This document shows positions 2,427-18,357 of a DNA stretch of 20,985 nt, in pieces. A program made the translations under genes and the position numbers. Below the pieces are notes generated by a model. That model was not told the origin of the DNA. It saw nothing but the letters and a program-made list of their open reading frames with translations, and searched no databases. Position 1 is the stretch's first letter. Each line of letters begins with the position of its first letter. This DNA is from a virus: the IMG/VR virus record IMGVR_UViG_3300038720_000007, positions 1 through 20,985 of that record; one strand, written 5' to 3'.

Positions 2427-2786
2427 TTAAGTTGCTGGAGGGATAGGAATACCCAACCAGTTTAGAACACCCGCTAATAAGCCGAATCCTGCTAACCATT
2501 TAACGAGTCTCCCGAGAGAAGAGCCGACCTTAACTACACCTTCAGCTGCACTCCAAGCCTCAACGAGTCCTTGTGTGCTTTCAGCTAATGCGTGGATAGC
2601 TGCGGTGTTCGCGTTTTGAGCACTCACCGTTAAGATACGACTCTCTATTGCGGCTTTCTCATGCTTCTCAAAATCCTCTTTATGCGCTCTAAAGTCTGCC
2701 TTAAGTCCTCTAAGGTTAGCGTGGAGGTCAGCATGAATCTTCGCTATATCTACCTTAAGGTCTTCACACTCTGCTGGTGTGGTCAT
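2427..2786 (-). CDS. Coiled-coil protein with one C-terminal TM segment, candidate holin
   Basis: The 119-residue protein has a charged helical N-terminal half (about 5-55, many Lys/Glu/His, likely coiled coil) and one hydrophobic segment near the C-terminus (about 94-113, LVKWLAGFGLLAGVLNWLG). It ends in a short Pro-rich tail. The layout recalls XhlA-type lysis-associated proteins. The gene occupies the T7 gene 17.5 (holin) position, just before the small terminase. Its ATG has AAGGAA upstream and overlaps the end of the second desaturase gene by 23 bases, so the two are probably translationally linked. The holin role is inferred from topology and synteny; no diagnostic holin motif is visible. 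Confidence 0.6.
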   Translation of the reverse strand: MTTPAECEDLKVDIAKIHADLHANLRGLKADFRAHKEDFEKHEKAAIESRILTVSAQNANTAAIHALAESTQGLVEAWSAAEGVVKVGSSLGRLVKWLAGFGLLAGVLNWLGIPIPPAT

Positions 2787-3543
2787 TTTTCGTATTCCTT
2801 CTGATTAATTTAATTAGCCAAGCATTAGGGTCAAGCTCCCACCACTTCTCTTGGTTAGACCACGCTCTTGGGTTGTGATGGTGGTTGTTATGCCAGCCCT
2901 CACCCAACGTGATTAAACTAGCTACCCAACTGTTGCGAGCCTCGTCAATACCTAAGTCATGTGTTTTATAGCCCTGCCTATGTGCAATCACAATAATAGC
3001 GCTAGAACTATGTAAACAAAGACAAGCAGGGATACAGTAGGCAAAGATGATTAGCATAGGATCTATCACAGCAAGCGCCACGCAATACACCAAGATGATC
3101 TCGAAGTAGTACTTATGCAACCTCTTTTGGAATTTGTCCTTTCTAATATCTTTACTTAAGTTTAAGTCTAAGTGTGTGATATTCCAGAAACCAAACCACG
3201 CCCTGAAGTTGCCCAGCAGATAGGGGCTATGAGGGTCAGCCGCTGTCTCGGTGGTCTTATGGTGCATCCGATGTAGAGTCACCCAAGCTAAAGGGCTTCC
3301 TACTGAAGTGATAACACCAATAACACTGAGTACTTTTTCTACAATAGGGTAGGTACTGAAGCTCCTATGTGCCAAGAGCCTGTGGTAGCCTATATTGATA
3401 CCTAAAACACCTAGACCCCAATAACTTAGCAACCCAACGAGAGCGTAACTGTACGCCCCCGTCATCACGACATAAGCGATACCCACTGCGAACAGTAAAT
3501 GATTAACAACCTGAAGCGCCCTTACTTTTATATTATGGGACAC
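2764..3543 (-). CDS. Membrane fatty-acid desaturase, canonical histidine boxes
   Basis: This is a di-iron, oxygen-dependent acyl desaturase of the membrane delta-9 (stearoyl-CoA desaturase/bacterial DesA-like) family. All three histidine boxes are present in 259 residues: HRLLAH at 54-59, HRMHH at 91-95 and HNNHH at 218-222, the last within GEGWHNNHHHNP. The extra conserved His of the family is at 188 (IAHRQGY). A C-terminal WWELDPNAWLIK (about 234-245) matches the typical tail of bacterial family members. Hydrophobic segments near 12-52, 70-90 and 147-185 fit a four-helix membrane enzyme. Electrons and oxygen would come from the host. The gene overlaps the preceding desaturase by 11 bases. 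Substrate and regiochemistry cannot be read from the sequence. Confidence 0.93.
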   Translation of the reverse strand: MSHNIKVRALQVVNHLLFAVGIAYVVMTGAYSYALVGLLSYWGLGVLGINIGYHRLLAHRSFSTYPIVEKVLSVIGVITSVGSPLAWVTLHRMHHKTTETAADPHSPYLLGNFRAWFGFWNITHLDLNLSKDIRKDKFQKRLHKYYFEIILVYCVALAVIDPMLIIFAYCIPACLCLHSSSAIIVIAHRQGYKTHDLGIDEARNSWVASLITLGEGWHNNHHHNPRAWSNQEKWWELDPNAWLIKLIRRNTKNDHTSRV

Positions 3544-4276
3544 TCTGTTCCTCCTTCTTAAAGATATAGGTGATTAAATACCCTGACACATCAAACAGCC
3601 CCGTAATAACTTGTCTAGGTCTATAATGATGTGTGTTCTGGTAGCTCTCACCAAAAGTGAATAGGTTCAGGAAATGGCAGTCCATACTTTTATCATCAGT
3701 AGGGTGTACTTGCTTGCCAATCATATGTCCAAACACACCTGTCATCTGGAGACTAAAGAAGGCCATAGCTGCAGGAACTGCCCACACCCACATGACTAAC
3801 TCAGGGTTGATTAAAGCTAAAGCCACAACATATCCTGCAATAACTTTAAAGTAGTTATCATGCAACCATTTGTGGTTCTTATCTCTAATCAAGTCCTTTA
3901 CCGTCATTGGAAGTATAGGTGAAGGCCATGGCCCTAGAACCCACGCTTTAAGGAACCCATTGTGTGGGTAATAAGGATCTGAACCTTCAACATCTGACTT
4001 ACTATGATGCTGCCTATGTTGACCCACCCAACTGATGGAGCTGCCTACACTGGCAAGCGTCCCCGCTATAAGAAGAAACCACCACCAGAATCTATTGGTC
4101 TTGTAAGACCTGTGTGCAAACAGTCTATGAAAACCAGCTGACAGCCCTACATTGACAACTACCCAAACAGCGAGGGCTGTAAACAACCCCCACCACGAGA
4201 AGAAGAAGAGTATCCCTGTAATACCGATTAGGTTTGTTAGGAATAGCATCGTCTTTACTTTGCGGAAGTAGCTCAC
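3533..4276 (-). CDS. Membrane fatty-acid desaturase paralogue with QxxHH third box
   Basis: This second, diverged member of the same family has 247 residues. Box 1 is HRLFAH (50-55), box 2 is HRQHH (87-91), and the extra family His is H184 (FGHMIG). Box 3 reads QNTHH (213-217) inside GESYQNTHHYRP, so Gln replaces the first His of the usual HxxHH. Gln at this place is known in front-end desaturases, so activity is possible, but regiochemistry may differ or the enzyme may be impaired. Hydrophobic stretches lie near 10-48, 62-82 and 145-183. The start is GTG at 4276, abutting the upstream stop codon; an in-frame ATG at 4249 (residue 10) is an alternative. The C-terminal WWE motif of its neighbour is absent. 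Confidence 0.9.
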   Translation of the reverse strand: MSYFRKVKTMLFLTNLIGITGILFFFSWWGLFTALAVWVVVNVGLSAGFHRLFAHRSYKTNRFWWWFLLIAGTLASVGSSISWVGQHRQHHSKSDVEGSDPYYPHNGFLKAWVLGPWPSPILPMTVKDLIRDKNHKWLHDNYFKVIAGYVVALALINPELVMWVWAVPAAMAFFSLQMTGVFGHMIGKQVHPTDDKSMDCHFLNLFTFGESYQNTHHYRPRQVITGLFDVSGYLITYIFKKEEQSVP

Positions 4277-4810
4277 CTAAGGACTCAACGTAGAGAACGT
4301 AGCGAATATAGCGGGGGTTGTCCCTGCCTGAACCGTTACAGTATCGACAGTCTCAAAGTGAATAACACTGTGCTTTTCATAAGTGATCCAATTTACAGTA
4401 ATACCATCCTCCGCTAGGAATAAACGCTTACCCATAACTCCAGTAAGGGTTTGGCTCTCATTAGGGGATAGCTGGGTTACTTCACCCTCCACCTCACCAC
4501 TGATGCAATAGTATTGCCCAGCTGCGGTTGCAACCATATTGATTGTCCGCTCACCTTCCGCAGTTAAAGGCTCGGTTTCACCTAATGGTGGCACTAAGAT
4601 TTTACCTTCCTCACGGCTCTGTTCTACCCTTAAGTCCATATTAGCGTCATAAGCATTTATAGCGCCTGAAGTTAAGAAGGTCACACCCCCCGTGGTAGTC
4701 TGGTCTATAGTAGTTGTCGTAAACATGTCACCTAACTTAAAGTCAGCCTTGATAACATTAAAGCCGTTCTCTTTGTTAGTGACTACTGTTTTAAATTTCC
4801 AGTTAGCCAT
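4277..4810 (-). CDS. Unknown protein of the tail-adhesin cluster
   Basis: I do not recognise this 177-residue protein. It is soluble-looking, with no signal peptide or membrane segment. It is rich in Thr, Val and Gly with alternating hydrophobic residues, suggesting mostly beta structure (for example TTTTIDQTTTGGVTFL near residues 32-47 and a Thr/Val-rich C-terminus). Its start shares a TAATG stop/start junction with the 89-residue gene upstream, and its stop abuts the GTG of the first desaturase. The position right after fibre and adhesin genes suggests an accessory tail or chaperone role, but this is a guess from context. Confidence 0.7.
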   Translation of the reverse strand: MANWKFKTVVTNKENGFNVIKADFKLGDMFTTTTIDQTTTGGVTFLTSGAINAYDANMDLRVEQSREEGKILVPPLGETEPLTAEGERTINMVATAAGQYYCISGEVEGEVTQLSPNESQTLTGVMGKRLFLAEDGITVNWITYEKHSVIHFETVDTVTVQAGTTPAIFATFSTLSP

Positions 4811-5079
4811 TACAAGACCACCTCACTTTGCCCTACATCACTCTGCTCCTCTGTAACTGCACCAGTAGCGCCCACCGAAGGGATGCTCAAGGTCTTTTCG
4901 ACCTCCACCCAGAGAGCTACTGGGGAATACTCCTTTATAACGGACTCAAGCTCTTGACCTTCAAAGGGTATTGGCATACTAGCTAAGACATCCTCACGCT
5001 CTGGCGAAGTATATTCAACCAGCATAGTCCTTGATTCTTCATCAACTTCTATAATTTTATATTCATATGTTATTTGCAT
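4810..5079 (-). CDS. Unknown small acidic protein of the tail-adhesin cluster
   Basis: This 89-residue product is strongly acidic and begins MQITYEYKIIEVDEESRTML, with beta-like alternation in the first half and a Ser/Gly/Val-rich C-terminal tail. No membrane segment or known motif is seen. The ATG has TAGGAAA about six bases upstream, formed in part by the stop codon of the preceding glycine-rich gene. The gene ends in a TAATG overlap with the next gene, so these two unknown proteins are likely made together. A fibre accessory or assembly protein is possible; I cannot support a specific function. Confidence 0.7.
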   Translation of the reverse strand: MQITYEYKIIEVDEESRTMLVEYTSPEREDVLASMPIPFEGQELESVIKEYSPVALWVEVEKTLSIPSVGATGAVTEEQSDVGQSEVVL

Positions 5080-5088
5080 TTTAATTTC

Positions 5089-5841
5089 CTATACGATTGT
5101 GCCTAAGCGGCTACCTGTAGCTATCCAAGTTATATTAGAGTCTCCATTTACAGCCTGTCCCGCAGCACCACTAGCACCAACAACACCAGCAGCACCTACG
5201 TCACCACCGCGTCCCCCTGCGTACAGACCCTGATTTTGCGTACCCCCAGCACCATAAGCGGCCAGTGTTCCTACACCACCATTAGCACCACCATTACCTC
5301 CTAAACCTGCTACAGAGTCGATGTTGCCTGAGCGACCGCCACCACCACCACCGAAGGCAGCTGATTTGTTAGCATTACCACCACAACCACCACCGCCACC
5401 CCCAGACCAAATGTTTCCTACGTTGTTAACAGAAGCGGGTACTGTCACCCTTAAGGCTCGACCTCCCGCACCACCTGCTTGACCTAACCCTGCACCAGTA
5501 GCAGCATTAGCACCCGCACCACCACGACCTCGTATATGTCCGTTGTTAATAAGGGTTACACCCTCAGGGAAAGAACCATCTATAGTCATAGCTGCTGTGC
5601 TATTACCAGCAGTATTACCTGAGATAACAACACCAGCGTTAATCGTACAAATTAAGAGAGAGCTTCCACCCCAACCCTCAGCTAACGCTAATGTGCGTAA
5701 GTTTGCGTTTGTCGTGTTTGTTGTGATGTTAAAAGTAAAGATGTTTTCATAAACAAGGTTAGCCCCTGCATAGACTTTTGCTATCTCAGTGCTTCCAAGA
5801 TATACGGTAGAGTTTTCTATTGCGCCTTTGAAGATGCCCAT
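5089..5841 (-). CDS. Glycine-rich tail protein, probable receptor-binding tip adhesin
   Basis: This 250-residue protein starts with a common phage-tail motif (VYLGSTEIAKVYAGANLVY, about 13-31). A Thr/Asn-rich beta region follows, then long glycine-rich blocks (about 104-128, 146-155, 163-172, 179-191, 197-230) and a conserved-looking end, ITWIATGSRLGTI (237-249). Alternating Gly blocks resemble the polyglycine-II sandwich of gp38-type adhesins (T4-like phage S16) and other glycine-rich tail tips. The gene follows the fibre gene through a TAATG overlap, which fits a protein that caps or extends the fibre and contacts the receptor. Assignment is from motif memory and context. Confidence 0.78.
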   Translation of the reverse strand: MGIFKGAIENSTVYLGSTEIAKVYAGANLVYENIFTFNITTNTTNANLRTLALAEGWGGSSLLICTINAGVVISGNTAGNSTAAMTIDGSFPEGVTLINNGHIRGRGGAGANAATGAGLGQAGGAGGRALRVTVPASVNNVGNIWSGGGGGGCGGNANKSAAFGGGGGGRSGNIDSVAGLGGNGGANGGVGTLAAYGAGGTQNQGLYAGGRGGDVGAAGVVGASGAAGQAVNGDSNITWIATGSRLGTIV

Positions 5842-13215: not shown

Positions 13216-13677
13216 TTAATCCCCCGTTGGTGTTAGTTTGGCAAATTCATAGAATGAGTTACCTTCGACTTTGAACTCTCTCAAGAAGGTGAACCCCGCC
13301 CAGCGAAGCCACCGTATGTGTACTGTGTTCTTGGCATAAACAGCATTAGTGAGTATTTTGTAGTGACCTCTCAGATTATCAATAACAGGTCGTGTGTCTC
13401 GTAATAGCTGAATCCAATAGGTCTTAAGCGCTGGGGAGGCCATCATCCAGATGAGACCCTTGAAGGGGACTTCTGTTTCCATAGTCCCGAAGATTACATG
13501 GGGTAACCCACTTTCAATATCAGCACAGACGTAGCAATCGCCTTCGCGAACCCCCAGTAATAGGGATTCTTCGGGGTCATGGTCTCCTGATGCTTGAAGC
13601 TCTTCGAGGTCAGCCTCGCGAAGTCGGGGTGCTAAACTTATTGCATCCGCTTCAGTTGCTCTCCTTATTTGATACAT
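13216..13677 (-). CDS. Internal virion protein, T7 gp13-like (GNAT-like fold)
   Basis: The product is 153 residues from the ATG at 13677, which shares its A with the tail tubular B stop codon (TAATG); a longer reading from 13716 would run 39 bases into that gene and is less likely. The N-terminus (YQIRRATEADAISLAPRLRE) has the acetyltransferase-like pattern seen in T7 gp13. The C-terminal HIRWLRWAGFTFLREF with its downstream F/Y resembles T7 gp13 (HIRFLKTIGAVF). In T7, gp13 is needed for virion morphogenesis and is lost from the mature particle. The canonical acetyl-CoA loop (Q/RxxGxG/A) is not visible, so catalysis is doubtful. Confidence 0.83.
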   Translation of the reverse strand: MYQIRRATEADAISLAPRLREADLEELQASGDHDPEESLLLGVREGDCYVCADIESGLPHVIFGTMETEVPFKGLIWMMASPALKTYWIQLLRDTRPVIDNLRGHYKILTNAVYAKNTVHIRWLRWAGFTFLREFKVEGNSFYEFAKLTPTGD

Positions 13678-16076
13678 TAAACTCTCTTTGATCTCAGATG
13701 GTAGTAACCTTCCCAATCAACACTCAATAGATGGCACTGTAGGTAGGAGTCATTGACGACTGCCATATCCACAAGGTCATTCTTGGAAGTGATAGGGAAC
13801 CTAAAAGACCCCTCTGAAAGTTGGATATCTCCTAGTAAGTTAGAGAGGACACCTACTTGTATCCCTGTGTACGGATAGCTAAATGTCCCACGTTGTGATG
13901 GTGTGACTTCAACTCTGAAGTACCCTGTTTTAGCGTACTGGATTGAAGCACCTCGTAGTTGTAATCGCCCTTGGCTTAACGAGCGTTGGCTCCCAGAAGC
14001 GTCGTTCTCTTTTATTAAGAAGGTAGAGAACTGGTATCTCATCTCATACTTCTTACCTAGGTAGAACGGTTGGTTGACTACGTTTTCAGGGACTATTAAC
14101 TTTGTAGTCTCCCCTGTGTTGTCATACGTGAAGTCTGTGAGTAACGTCCCCTTCTTGGAAGCACCATTCGGGGCATAGACAAGTTGGAGGTTATCGGCGG
14201 CTGTCACTGTATAAGGCAAGGTTACTTCGGTTGAAGAACCTCCTGAGCCTGAAGGGATGTCCGCACGTTCTACTAGCGGGAGGTCGGTACTATAGAGCTT
14301 ACTGTCGAGAAGAATAGGCATTTCCCAATCTGTTTCGACAATAGAGCCTTCAAGGTTAATAACCTCTAGGTGAATACCGTCCGCTCTCTCTATCATGATG
14401 TAGAGCTGCGACTCAATGAAGTCACAATTCAATACCTTATCGTCAGCGCCAAATTGCCACTTAGACCAGGATGCCTGAAGTTTGTCATCATTAGAGAAGT
14501 AGTACCTATAAATGTAGATAGTGTTTTGGTCTTCTTCAGTTAATACAGCAAGGGTATCTTCGTTAGAACTGGCAGCAATCTTATAAATAGTCCCTTTGAT
14601 ATAAGCAGGGACATGTGCTGTAACTTCGGCAGCTTCTTCTGACTCCGTATCTGCATCAACGTAGTACTCTCGGAGGCCTGAATAATCACCATGCTTCACA
14701 GCGAAATATACAAACTTACCAACACCTATAGGTTTAGCTATTAGCGAACATTCATACTCAGTAGTCTGGTTGATGTTGACTGTTTCAGGTGTGAGAAGTG
14801 TCGTAACCCCTAATTGAAACTGGGTTTGGTTAGAGAACATTAATAAGGTTTCATTGAAAGGAACAGCATGTTTCAATATGGACACTTTCACATGGCTGAT
14901 ACCGACATCAATGGGATCATCATCAAGTACAGCTGTAGCTGTTGCCCTAAACAAGGTGTAATATTCCCCCGCTTTGGAAAAGATGACATTCTCATCCGCA
15001 GTAATACCTAAGCGGTTTCTGTGGAAGAACAGGTCAGAGATCTTACGCCCAATGAAAGAGGGGAAGGGAGCGCTCTTCTCGTCACCAGATAAGCGGTCTT
15101 CCCATGTTAAAACCTTGAAGGTAAACGAACCATCAGCTTCTCTTACGAGAGCATGGGGAAGGGTAGAGGCTTCCATCCTGAAGGTTTCACCACCTTTAGC
15201 TGCCTCATTCCAAATACCATCTTGTGTGCCTGTTTGTGAGGTATCAAACTCAACGTAGAAGTTGTCAGCGGTTGAGCCACTATTCCCTGCTACTTCAACT
15301 TGGAAACCATGGACTGCACGTGTAGGTAGATTAGAGAAGCTCTGTACTTTGTCTTTGACAATCTCCATACCCCTATCACCTAGAGGAGATGTACCACCGA
15401 GTGTAAAGGCCGCACCATCTTTACGGCGTATCCAGATTGTGGAACCATACTGAGTAATGTCAAAAGTCGTTGAGAGTGCGCTATTAAGGTCATTCCTTAT
15501 CTGATTTGCAATCTGAGTTGTCTTCACAAGGGGAGAGTGAGAGGCGACACTCCCATTAGGCACTTGATAGGAAGCCACTTCCGTACCATCTATCTCAACT
15601 GTGTACACACCCCCATAAGTACCTTGTTTAATCCATACAAGGGCTTCGGGATCTCTAAGGGGAGAGAGCACCGTAGAAGCGGTAGTTACAACATCTTTAT
15701 TTAAAACGAAAGTGTAATCAGCTACTGTTACGGAAGTAAAACCAGAGCGTGGAGAACTAGAGACGAGATAAGACCCATCAGTTGTGTCGTTCACAACCTT
15801 CTGGTTTCCTAAGAAGTCATAAATCTTAATAACACCACCCTCGATGATGACACTATATTGCTCTGTATTGTCTCTGTTGATTGTGTGTAGGTAAGCGTTG
15901 CCTGTTATGCCTTCTAGTTTAGCGAGATGAACGGTAGGTGCTCGCTTGCTTAAACCATCGACGACTGAGGAACGGGCATTGATTTGCTCAACGCCTTGAG
16001 AGGATAAGCGTAGGTAGTCAGGTTGCTGACTTACCCCGTTTGCTATATTGGGAATTGATGAGGAGACTAAAGGCAT
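13677..16076 (-). CDS. Tail tubular protein B (nozzle, T7 gp12-like)
   Basis: The 799-residue protein matches T7 gp12 (794) in length. It opens with the family signature SIPNIANGVSQQPDYLRL (about 7-24), followed by QGVEQINARSSVVDGLSKR. The bulk is beta-rich, as expected of the nozzle that closes the tail and binds the fibres with gp11. A FIGRKISDLFFHRNRLGITAD segment near the middle is also typical of the family. It is coupled to the tail tubular A gene through TAATG at its start, and to the gp13-like gene through TAATG at its end. Confidence 0.95.
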   Translation of the reverse strand: MPLVSSSIPNIANGVSQQPDYLRLSSQGVEQINARSSVVDGLSKRAPTVHLAKLEGITGNAYLHTINRDNTEQYSVIIEGGVIKIYDFLGNQKVVNDTTDGSYLVSSSPRSGFTSVTVADYTFVLNKDVVTTASTVLSPLRDPEALVWIKQGTYGGVYTVEIDGTEVASYQVPNGSVASHSPLVKTTQIANQIRNDLNSALSTTFDITQYGSTIWIRRKDGAAFTLGGTSPLGDRGMEIVKDKVQSFSNLPTRAVHGFQVEVAGNSGSTADNFYVEFDTSQTGTQDGIWNEAAKGGETFRMEASTLPHALVREADGSFTFKVLTWEDRLSGDEKSAPFPSFIGRKISDLFFHRNRLGITADENVIFSKAGEYYTLFRATATAVLDDDPIDVGISHVKVSILKHAVPFNETLLMFSNQTQFQLGVTTLLTPETVNINQTTEYECSLIAKPIGVGKFVYFAVKHGDYSGLREYYVDADTESEEAAEVTAHVPAYIKGTIYKIAASSNEDTLAVLTEEDQNTIYIYRYYFSNDDKLQASWSKWQFGADDKVLNCDFIESQLYIMIERADGIHLEVINLEGSIVETDWEMPILLDSKLYSTDLPLVERADIPSGSGGSSTEVTLPYTVTAADNLQLVYAPNGASKKGTLLTDFTYDNTGETTKLIVPENVVNQPFYLGKKYEMRYQFSTFLIKENDASGSQRSLSQGRLQLRGASIQYAKTGYFRVEVTPSQRGTFSYPYTGIQVGVLSNLLGDIQLSEGSFRFPITSKNDLVDMAVVNDSYLQCHLLSVDWEGYYHLRSKRV

Positions 16077-17994: not shown

Positions 17995-17996
17995 TT
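17974..17996 (-). promoter_or_regulatory. T7-class phage promoter for the major capsid gene
   Basis: On the minus strand AATTACCCCACAGTCTT lies at -17 to -1 and GGAGAA at +1 to +6, with +1 at 17979. The pattern is close to the T3 promoter, which also begins AATTA and has a CCC block. The invariant CAC of the T7 promoter family falls at -9 to -7. Sixteen core bases are identical to the site at 328-343. It overlaps the stop codon of the membrane-protein gene and corresponds in place to T7 phi10. It implies a phage-encoded single-subunit RNA polymerase outside this window. Confidence 0.8.
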
Positions 17997-18357
17997 AATT
18001 AGGCGGTTGGCCTATCTTAAGATTCTGTTGTTTAAAGAACCACCTTAAGCCGAAACTTGCAGCCATGATCCCAAACATACCTATCTGATAGAACACGGGA
18101 AGTGCTCCAACAAACTGAACCCACGCAGTAGCTTTCACGGGATCGAACCACGCGATTACTAAAGGTGAGAACCATATGATGGTGATGATTTCATCCTTCC
18201 AGCTGAACTGAGACTGCCGCAGGGCGATGATGTCCCACGTAGCCTCTTGTTCAGATAGTTTAATTTGGAAGTTTGCTTCGGCTTGGTGTTTAGCTTTCTT
18301 CGAGTCCATCCATGAGGTGAATACCCCAGATAGACCTTGGATTACTAAACCCCACAT
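17995..18357 (-). CDS. Small membrane protein, holin-like, between scaffold and capsid
   Basis: The 120-residue protein has a short hydrophobic N-terminus (1-15), a charged helical section rich in Lys/Gln/Glu (18-50), then SWKDEIITIIWFSPLVIAW (52-70) and a second hydrophobic block (77-105), ending in a basic tail. The pattern of a charged WKDE just before two membrane helices is one I associate with small holin-like proteins of marine podophages and gene-transfer-agent-like holins. It is coupled to the scaffold gene by TAATG, and its stop codon overlaps the capsid promoter. T7 has no gene at this spot. A role in lysis or in membrane-linked head assembly is possible. Confidence 0.65.
   Translation of the reverse strand: MWGLVIQGLSGVFTSWMDSKKAKHQAEANFQIKLSEQEATWDIIALRQSQFSWKDEIITIIWFSPLVIAWFDPVKATAWVQFVGALPVFYQIGMFGIMAASFGLRWFFKQQNLKIGQPPN

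Follow-up and report, generated by a model that had tools for sequence, protein, structure and literature searches.

Two putative membrane desaturases in the late region of a LUZ100-like phage and the adhesin-linked gene block that carries them

The IMG/VR record IMGVR_UViG_3300038720_000007 is a 21-kb viral fragment without the early region, and its whole length of 20,985 nucleotides is referred to here as the window. It encodes two adjacent desaturases, DesA and DesB, which lie among the following genes:

2427..2786, minus strand: g119, candidate holin by position, with no Pfam family
2764-3543, minus strand: DesA, 259 aa, GTG start, Pfam PF00487 (FA_desaturase)
3533-4276, minus strand: DesB, 247 aa, GTG start, Pfam PF00487 (FA_desaturase)
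4277..4810, minus strand: g177, function not assigned, with no Pfam or PHROG family
4810..5079, minus strand: g89, member of the block described below, with no Pfam or PHROG family
5089..5841, minus strand: Gp38-type tail fibre adhesin (PF05268, 2e-10)
17995-18357: g120, phrog_2524, between the scaffold and capsid genes

Both desaturase reading frames, on the minus strand, occur exactly where the original prediction had placed them, including their 11-nt overlap; at its end DesA extends 23 nt into g119, the start of DesB directly abuts g177, and no third desaturase copy is present in the record, which is the window itself. DesA (61.9 bits, 1e-16) and DesB (52.2 bits, 9e-14) both exceed the curated PF00487 cut-off of 29.7 bits and have a predicted SCD1-like fold, in agreement with their initial description as two diverged membrane di-iron desaturases. 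The clear histidine boxes also ascribed to the pair are found in DesA, which contains three canonical boxes (HRLLAH, HRMHH and HNNHH), but not throughout DesB (HRLFAH, HRQHH and QNTHH), where glutamine replaces the first histidine of box III. DesA has the HxxHH third box of SCD/DesC-type enzymes, to which the QNTHH of DesB is an exception. The two enzymes probably add double bonds to host membrane fats.

The genes on the minus strand, some of them named by position, run in the order portal, scaffold, g120, capsid, tubular proteins, gp13-like, gp14, gp15 and gp16, followed by tail fibre, Gp38-like adhesin, g89, g177, DesB, DesA, g119, TerS and TerL. This is the T7-type late gene set and order of the Autographiviridae, with the TerS, TerL, tail fibre N-terminus and T7 gp13-like families present. 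The nearest isolate, Pseudomonas phage LUZ100, shares the late gene order, and its capsid protein and TerL are 76% identical to those of the window; unlike the window, it has a class II holin at the place of the pair and carries no desaturase, g177 or Gp38-type adhesin there. A terminator-like hairpin (6932-6911, minus strand) is located in the gap between gp16 and the tail fibre gene, where LUZ100 has an annotated terminator, and suggests that the genes from fibre to terminase form one late unit, a consensus match of this kind being of weak evidential value. On gene content and order, the window is assigned to a LUZ100-like phage of the Autographiviridae, with the pair in its predicted last late unit. 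Two further features of the window may be recorded here: a GNAT-like gene (13216-13716) is found where T7 has its gene 13 and matches Phage_T7_Gp13 weakly (2e-4, below the cut-off), and after TerL, where the late region nears its end, a 24-bp tandem repeat (130-187; 2.4 copies at 97% match) possibly lies close to the genome end.

The pair had been described as sitting among tail, lysis and packaging genes; its late position is borne out, while genes for lysis can be named only tentatively in the window and become clear beside the pair in relatives. The lysis candidates of the window are g119 and g120. The former stands where LUZ100 has its class II holin, and a distant homologue of it in contig L001, behind an M15 peptidase gene, has one predicted membrane segment. 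Distant homologues of g120 occur directly in the lysis region after DesA in L004, L023 and L025, and g120 is a possible second holin that changed place. In relatives, the genes following DesA encode a GH108 endolysin (L004), an M15 peptidase (L001), or a class II holin and a phage lysozyme (L006), and in several of them the block lies directly before the lysis cassette. A late, membrane-directed role, as proposed at the outset, is the natural reading and fits this place before varied lysis cassettes.

The statement that known T7 relatives have nothing at this position is valid for isolates, as LUZ100 has its class II holin there and relatives of DesA or DesB are absent from every T7-like record in a set of 50,697 phage records, but not for uncultured T7-like contigs, which carry the pair. 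An assembly chimera with host DNA, named in the original prediction as what would refute it, is unlikely, as metagenomes of independent origin contain contigs with identical junctions, the frames adjoin or overlap those of the neighbouring phage genes, and the best prokaryote identity is about 35% among the matches listed.

The pair, a genuine and well-conserved feature, also occurs outside this phage, and belongs to a transferable, adhesin-linked block. The order adhesin, g89, g177, DesB, DesA is constant in contigs with enough sequence, and the C-terminal part of the adhesin is common to the other carriers of the block. A profile search with g177 detected 11 loci, all 11 with DesB adjoining, and no match among the 50,697 phage records. 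At least three kinds of phage are among the carriers. T7-like carriers comprise the window, L003 and L024 (with homologues of gp14, gp16 and the tail fibre) and L004 (with TerS and TerL); contractile-tailed carriers comprise a contig of 35,950 bases that encodes tail sheath, baseplate J-type and tape-measure proteins and cuts DesB off at its end, and L023, with a Mu-type gp48; a further group is represented by L019, which retains the end of DesA only and has a virion protein nearest to that of Vibrio phage vB_ValP_VA-RY-3. Other genes diverge strongly among the carriers: between L003 and the window, pieces of gp16 are 23-27% identical, while DesB and DesA are 75-77% identical. DesA, DesB, g177, g89 and the adhesin are absent from the available stretch of the 80 contigs with the nearest TerL among the matches listed, and DesA occurs nowhere in three longer records with a near TerL; the block was therefore acquired by exchange. 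At the nucleotide level, L001 and the window share 55-75% identity across g177 and DesB and 89-99% over about the last two-thirds of DesA, after which the identity drops again; for L001 and L004 the pattern is reversed. These switches point to crossovers inside DesA, and DesA and DesB stay together all the same. The block has been transferred as one unit to phages whose tails are quite unlike one another.

Since the enzymes are linked to a receptor-binding adhesin in a block that passes between unrelated phages, they may change the surface seen by the Gp38-type adhesin so that sibling virions cease to bind to infected cells or debris, which would serve superinfection exclusion or aid release. 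Such an envelope conversion is nevertheless improbable, as an acyl-chain change in the membrane is a weak way of hiding a surface receptor, and desaturases far from any adhesin are seen in T4-like, large and other phages.

All 22 full-length DesB loci, several of which derive from near-identical populations and are not independent, have a second desaturase adjoining, in tandem or divergent orientation, as do 27 of the 41 loci of the DesA clade. In the viral contigs L033-L037, DesA and DesB adjoin but are divergently oriented, and joint action is favoured because the pairing is kept even in this arrangement. DesA occurs alone, without a second DesA-like enzyme, in L008-L018, and so is not always in need of a partner. 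Polyyne-type clusters, which combine desaturases with an acyl carrier protein, were considered and rejected, as PP-binding domains occur in just 5 of 35 desaturase-bearing viral records, all at least 70 kb long, and in neither of the 2 block-bearing records among the 35. The five large phages concerned (L090, L094, L101, L102 and L112) have desaturase pairs together with acyl-carrier-protein-like PP-binding domains, within about 15 kb of the desaturases in four of them. A search confined to Fer2 ferredoxins detected none in the 35 records, and the activity would thus depend on the electron supply of the host. In the sequence CAKLQH020000002.1 (L030), labelled 'Acinetobacter phage MD-2021a', the desaturase is surrounded by trpC, btuB, baeS and baeR, which identify the record as part of a bacterial chromosome, and it was not counted among phage desaturases.

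Other phages contain arrays of two to five desaturases, and in one T4-like array phage the gp46-like protein shares 65% identity with its counterpart in Pelagibacter phage Mosig. Tandem runs of 3-5 genes, mostly with 4-nt overlaps, occur in L038-L044, L057-L069, L092 and L109, with a different third box in each gene (QNT, HKE, HNN, HKK, HKY and HNY across the arrays), and the arrays checked by Pfam are situated between uvsW-type and sigma-factor-like genes of T4-like phages.

The homology search and tree proposed with the original prediction place DesA and DesB in distinct viral lineages, and not as recent sister paralogues. In a tree of 121 rows, DesB forms one clade (SH-aLRT 100) that extends across T7-like, contractile and T4-like phages, DesA lies within a viral clade common to many other phage contigs, and the 32 bacterial rows form a single clade outside both. 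A 52-row bootstrap tree concurs (100/100 for B, 89/89 for A and 100/100 for the bacteria). Recent tandem duplication is ruled out by the separate clades and an identity of about 34% between DesA and DesB, and recent capture from a host is unsupported, the closest prokaryote identity being about 35% among the matches listed. As the sampled bacteria fall outside both clades, separate ancient captures and one ancient viral duplication are both possible origins. Ratios of dN/dS between 0.02 and 0.17, for pairs with unsaturated dS, indicate purifying selection. Neither a relative of DesB nor a QNxHH third box was found with the DesB profile in genome_contigs (84,980 prokaryote species), in a scan resting on two short patterns, and the best match in 386 Pseudomonadota genomes reached 130 bits, compared with about 500 for close family members. 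The third box is HNNHH in all 162 bacterial homologues collected, part of which were picked by a pattern that includes HNNHH. The Q-type DesB has so far been seen in viruses only.

AlphaFold models, likewise proposed earlier and built here on 56-58 viral and bacterial relatives, gave a mean pLDDT of 95 for both proteins and a stearoyl-CoA desaturase-like fold. The strong PDB matches of both models are SCD1 structures only (E = 1.5e-10 for DesA and 4e-9 for DesB), with TM scores of 0.77-0.81 to 4ymk, 4zyo and 6wf2, and predicted DesB superposes with Z 23 over 239 residues; identity in the structural alignment is just 20-28%. Of the nine histidine positions of SCD1, DesA keeps all nine and DesB eight. 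The A-R-D preceding box II of SCD1, where the R-D pair presumably holds CoA, is V-T-L and V-G-Q in the viral pair, and these residues differ from SCD1 in viral and bacterial sequences alike; the asparagine four residues before the H269 position of SCD1 is also missing from DesA and DesB. With the CoA-holding residues of SCD1 replaced, acyl-lipid, acyl-ACP and acyl-CoA substrates are equally plausible.

Across 58 aligned sequences, eight of the ligand histidines do not vary, while the ninth position, the first histidine of box III, is glutamine in all 13 DesB sequences (motif GESYQNxHH) and histidine in DesA and all 45 non-DesB sequences aligned. Together with the adjoining W-to-Y and G-to-S changes, this distribution favours the reading of DesB as a non-desaturating partner or an enzyme of other chemistry (hydroxylase, acetylenase or regulatory subunit) that has lost one iron-site histidine. 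The reading is given a low probability, as front-end desaturases with glutamine in the third box are active (PMC5785352) and DesB is under purifying selection. The glutamine of DesB (QNxHH, 13/13) is the front-end replacement of the first third-box histidine; DesB itself is not regarded as a front-end desaturase, as it has no fused cytochrome b5 and its 247 residues match PF00487 only. In DesB this ligand change may signify a different reaction or an enzyme of low activity, which speaks against the preferred account below.

In the preferred account, DesA and DesB are integral-membrane di-iron acyl desaturases with the SCD/DesC fold that come from two virus-specific lineages; they would be made late from the tail fibre-to-terminase unit, draw electrons from host carriers and remodel the acyl chains of the host membrane. 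The first double bond may be introduced by DesA, while DesB, whose iron site is altered, may carry out a second, or a shifted, modification of these chains or act as the partner of DesA. The envelope would be altered, probably becoming more fluid, during virion assembly and holin action, and the genes would be exchanged as one block, together with g89, g177 and the receptor-binding adhesin, between phages of different virions. What the analysis establishes of this account is the family homology, the predicted fold and ligand set, the late position, the pairing and linkage of the genes and the purifying selection on them; the purpose, the substrate, the electron donor and the order of the two reactions are inferred. 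The account as a whole has about an even chance of being correct; within it, both enzymes most likely act together, late, on host acyl chains.

A possible but less probable reading is that these are general membrane-fluidity or cold-tolerance genes, placed at the fibre-lysis junction by accident of where accessory genes are tolerated. It accords with the fluidity model published for the desaturases of Arctic brine viruses (PMC7300359) and with members of the same family elsewhere in other phages, such as beside uvsW in T4-like phages, and the crossovers inside DesA imply that the genes may also serve as homology for the exchange of neighbours; linkage to g177, g89 and the adhesin across virion types and strict pairing nonetheless exceed an accident of place. 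A bolder extension of the late-remodelling account, and a rather doubtful one, is that adhesin, g89, g177, DesB and DesA form one functional cassette joining host recognition to late envelope remodelling of the same host, in which a virus-only His-to-Gln class of possibly new chemistry would tune lysis or block re-adsorption.

Phage desaturases have earlier been viewed as cold-adaptation genes from hosts, whereas the lineages described here are viral and far from the prokaryote homologues found, occur in pairs or arrays, have tail and lysis genes as neighbours and are transferred with an adhesin. Two small genes make acyl-chain remodelling in lysis or superinfection directly testable, and provide compact desaturases for enzymology, one with an unusual ligand set. 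Among isolates, Pelagibacter phage Mosig EXVC030M (MT647606), a marine phage, also encodes a PF00487 protein, which differs in its 24-25% identity and in being a single gene in the metabolic region of a T4-like phage. The lipid desaturases of cyanophages (Roitman et al. 2018, ISME J), as described in citing works, are likewise phage-borne and thought to alter host lipids, and differ in their cyanophage carriers. According to Zhong et al. 2020 (PMC7300359), viral contigs from Arctic brine and sea ice encode vFAD, with five copies each in two viruses, and membrane modification by viral desaturases is already proposed there; several desaturases per virus and some clades without cellular members are shared with the present case. 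Zhong et al. report the conserved histidine motifs in 11 of 12 and, in the text covered, describe no Gln-type third box, adhesin-linked block or T7-like late operon, and no report of such a block or of the Q-type subfamily was found in the literature covered, which includes Roitman et al. through citations only. The multiplicity of viral desaturases is not new, as five per virus were already reported; more unusual are the Q-type DesB and the exchangeable adhesin-desaturase block.
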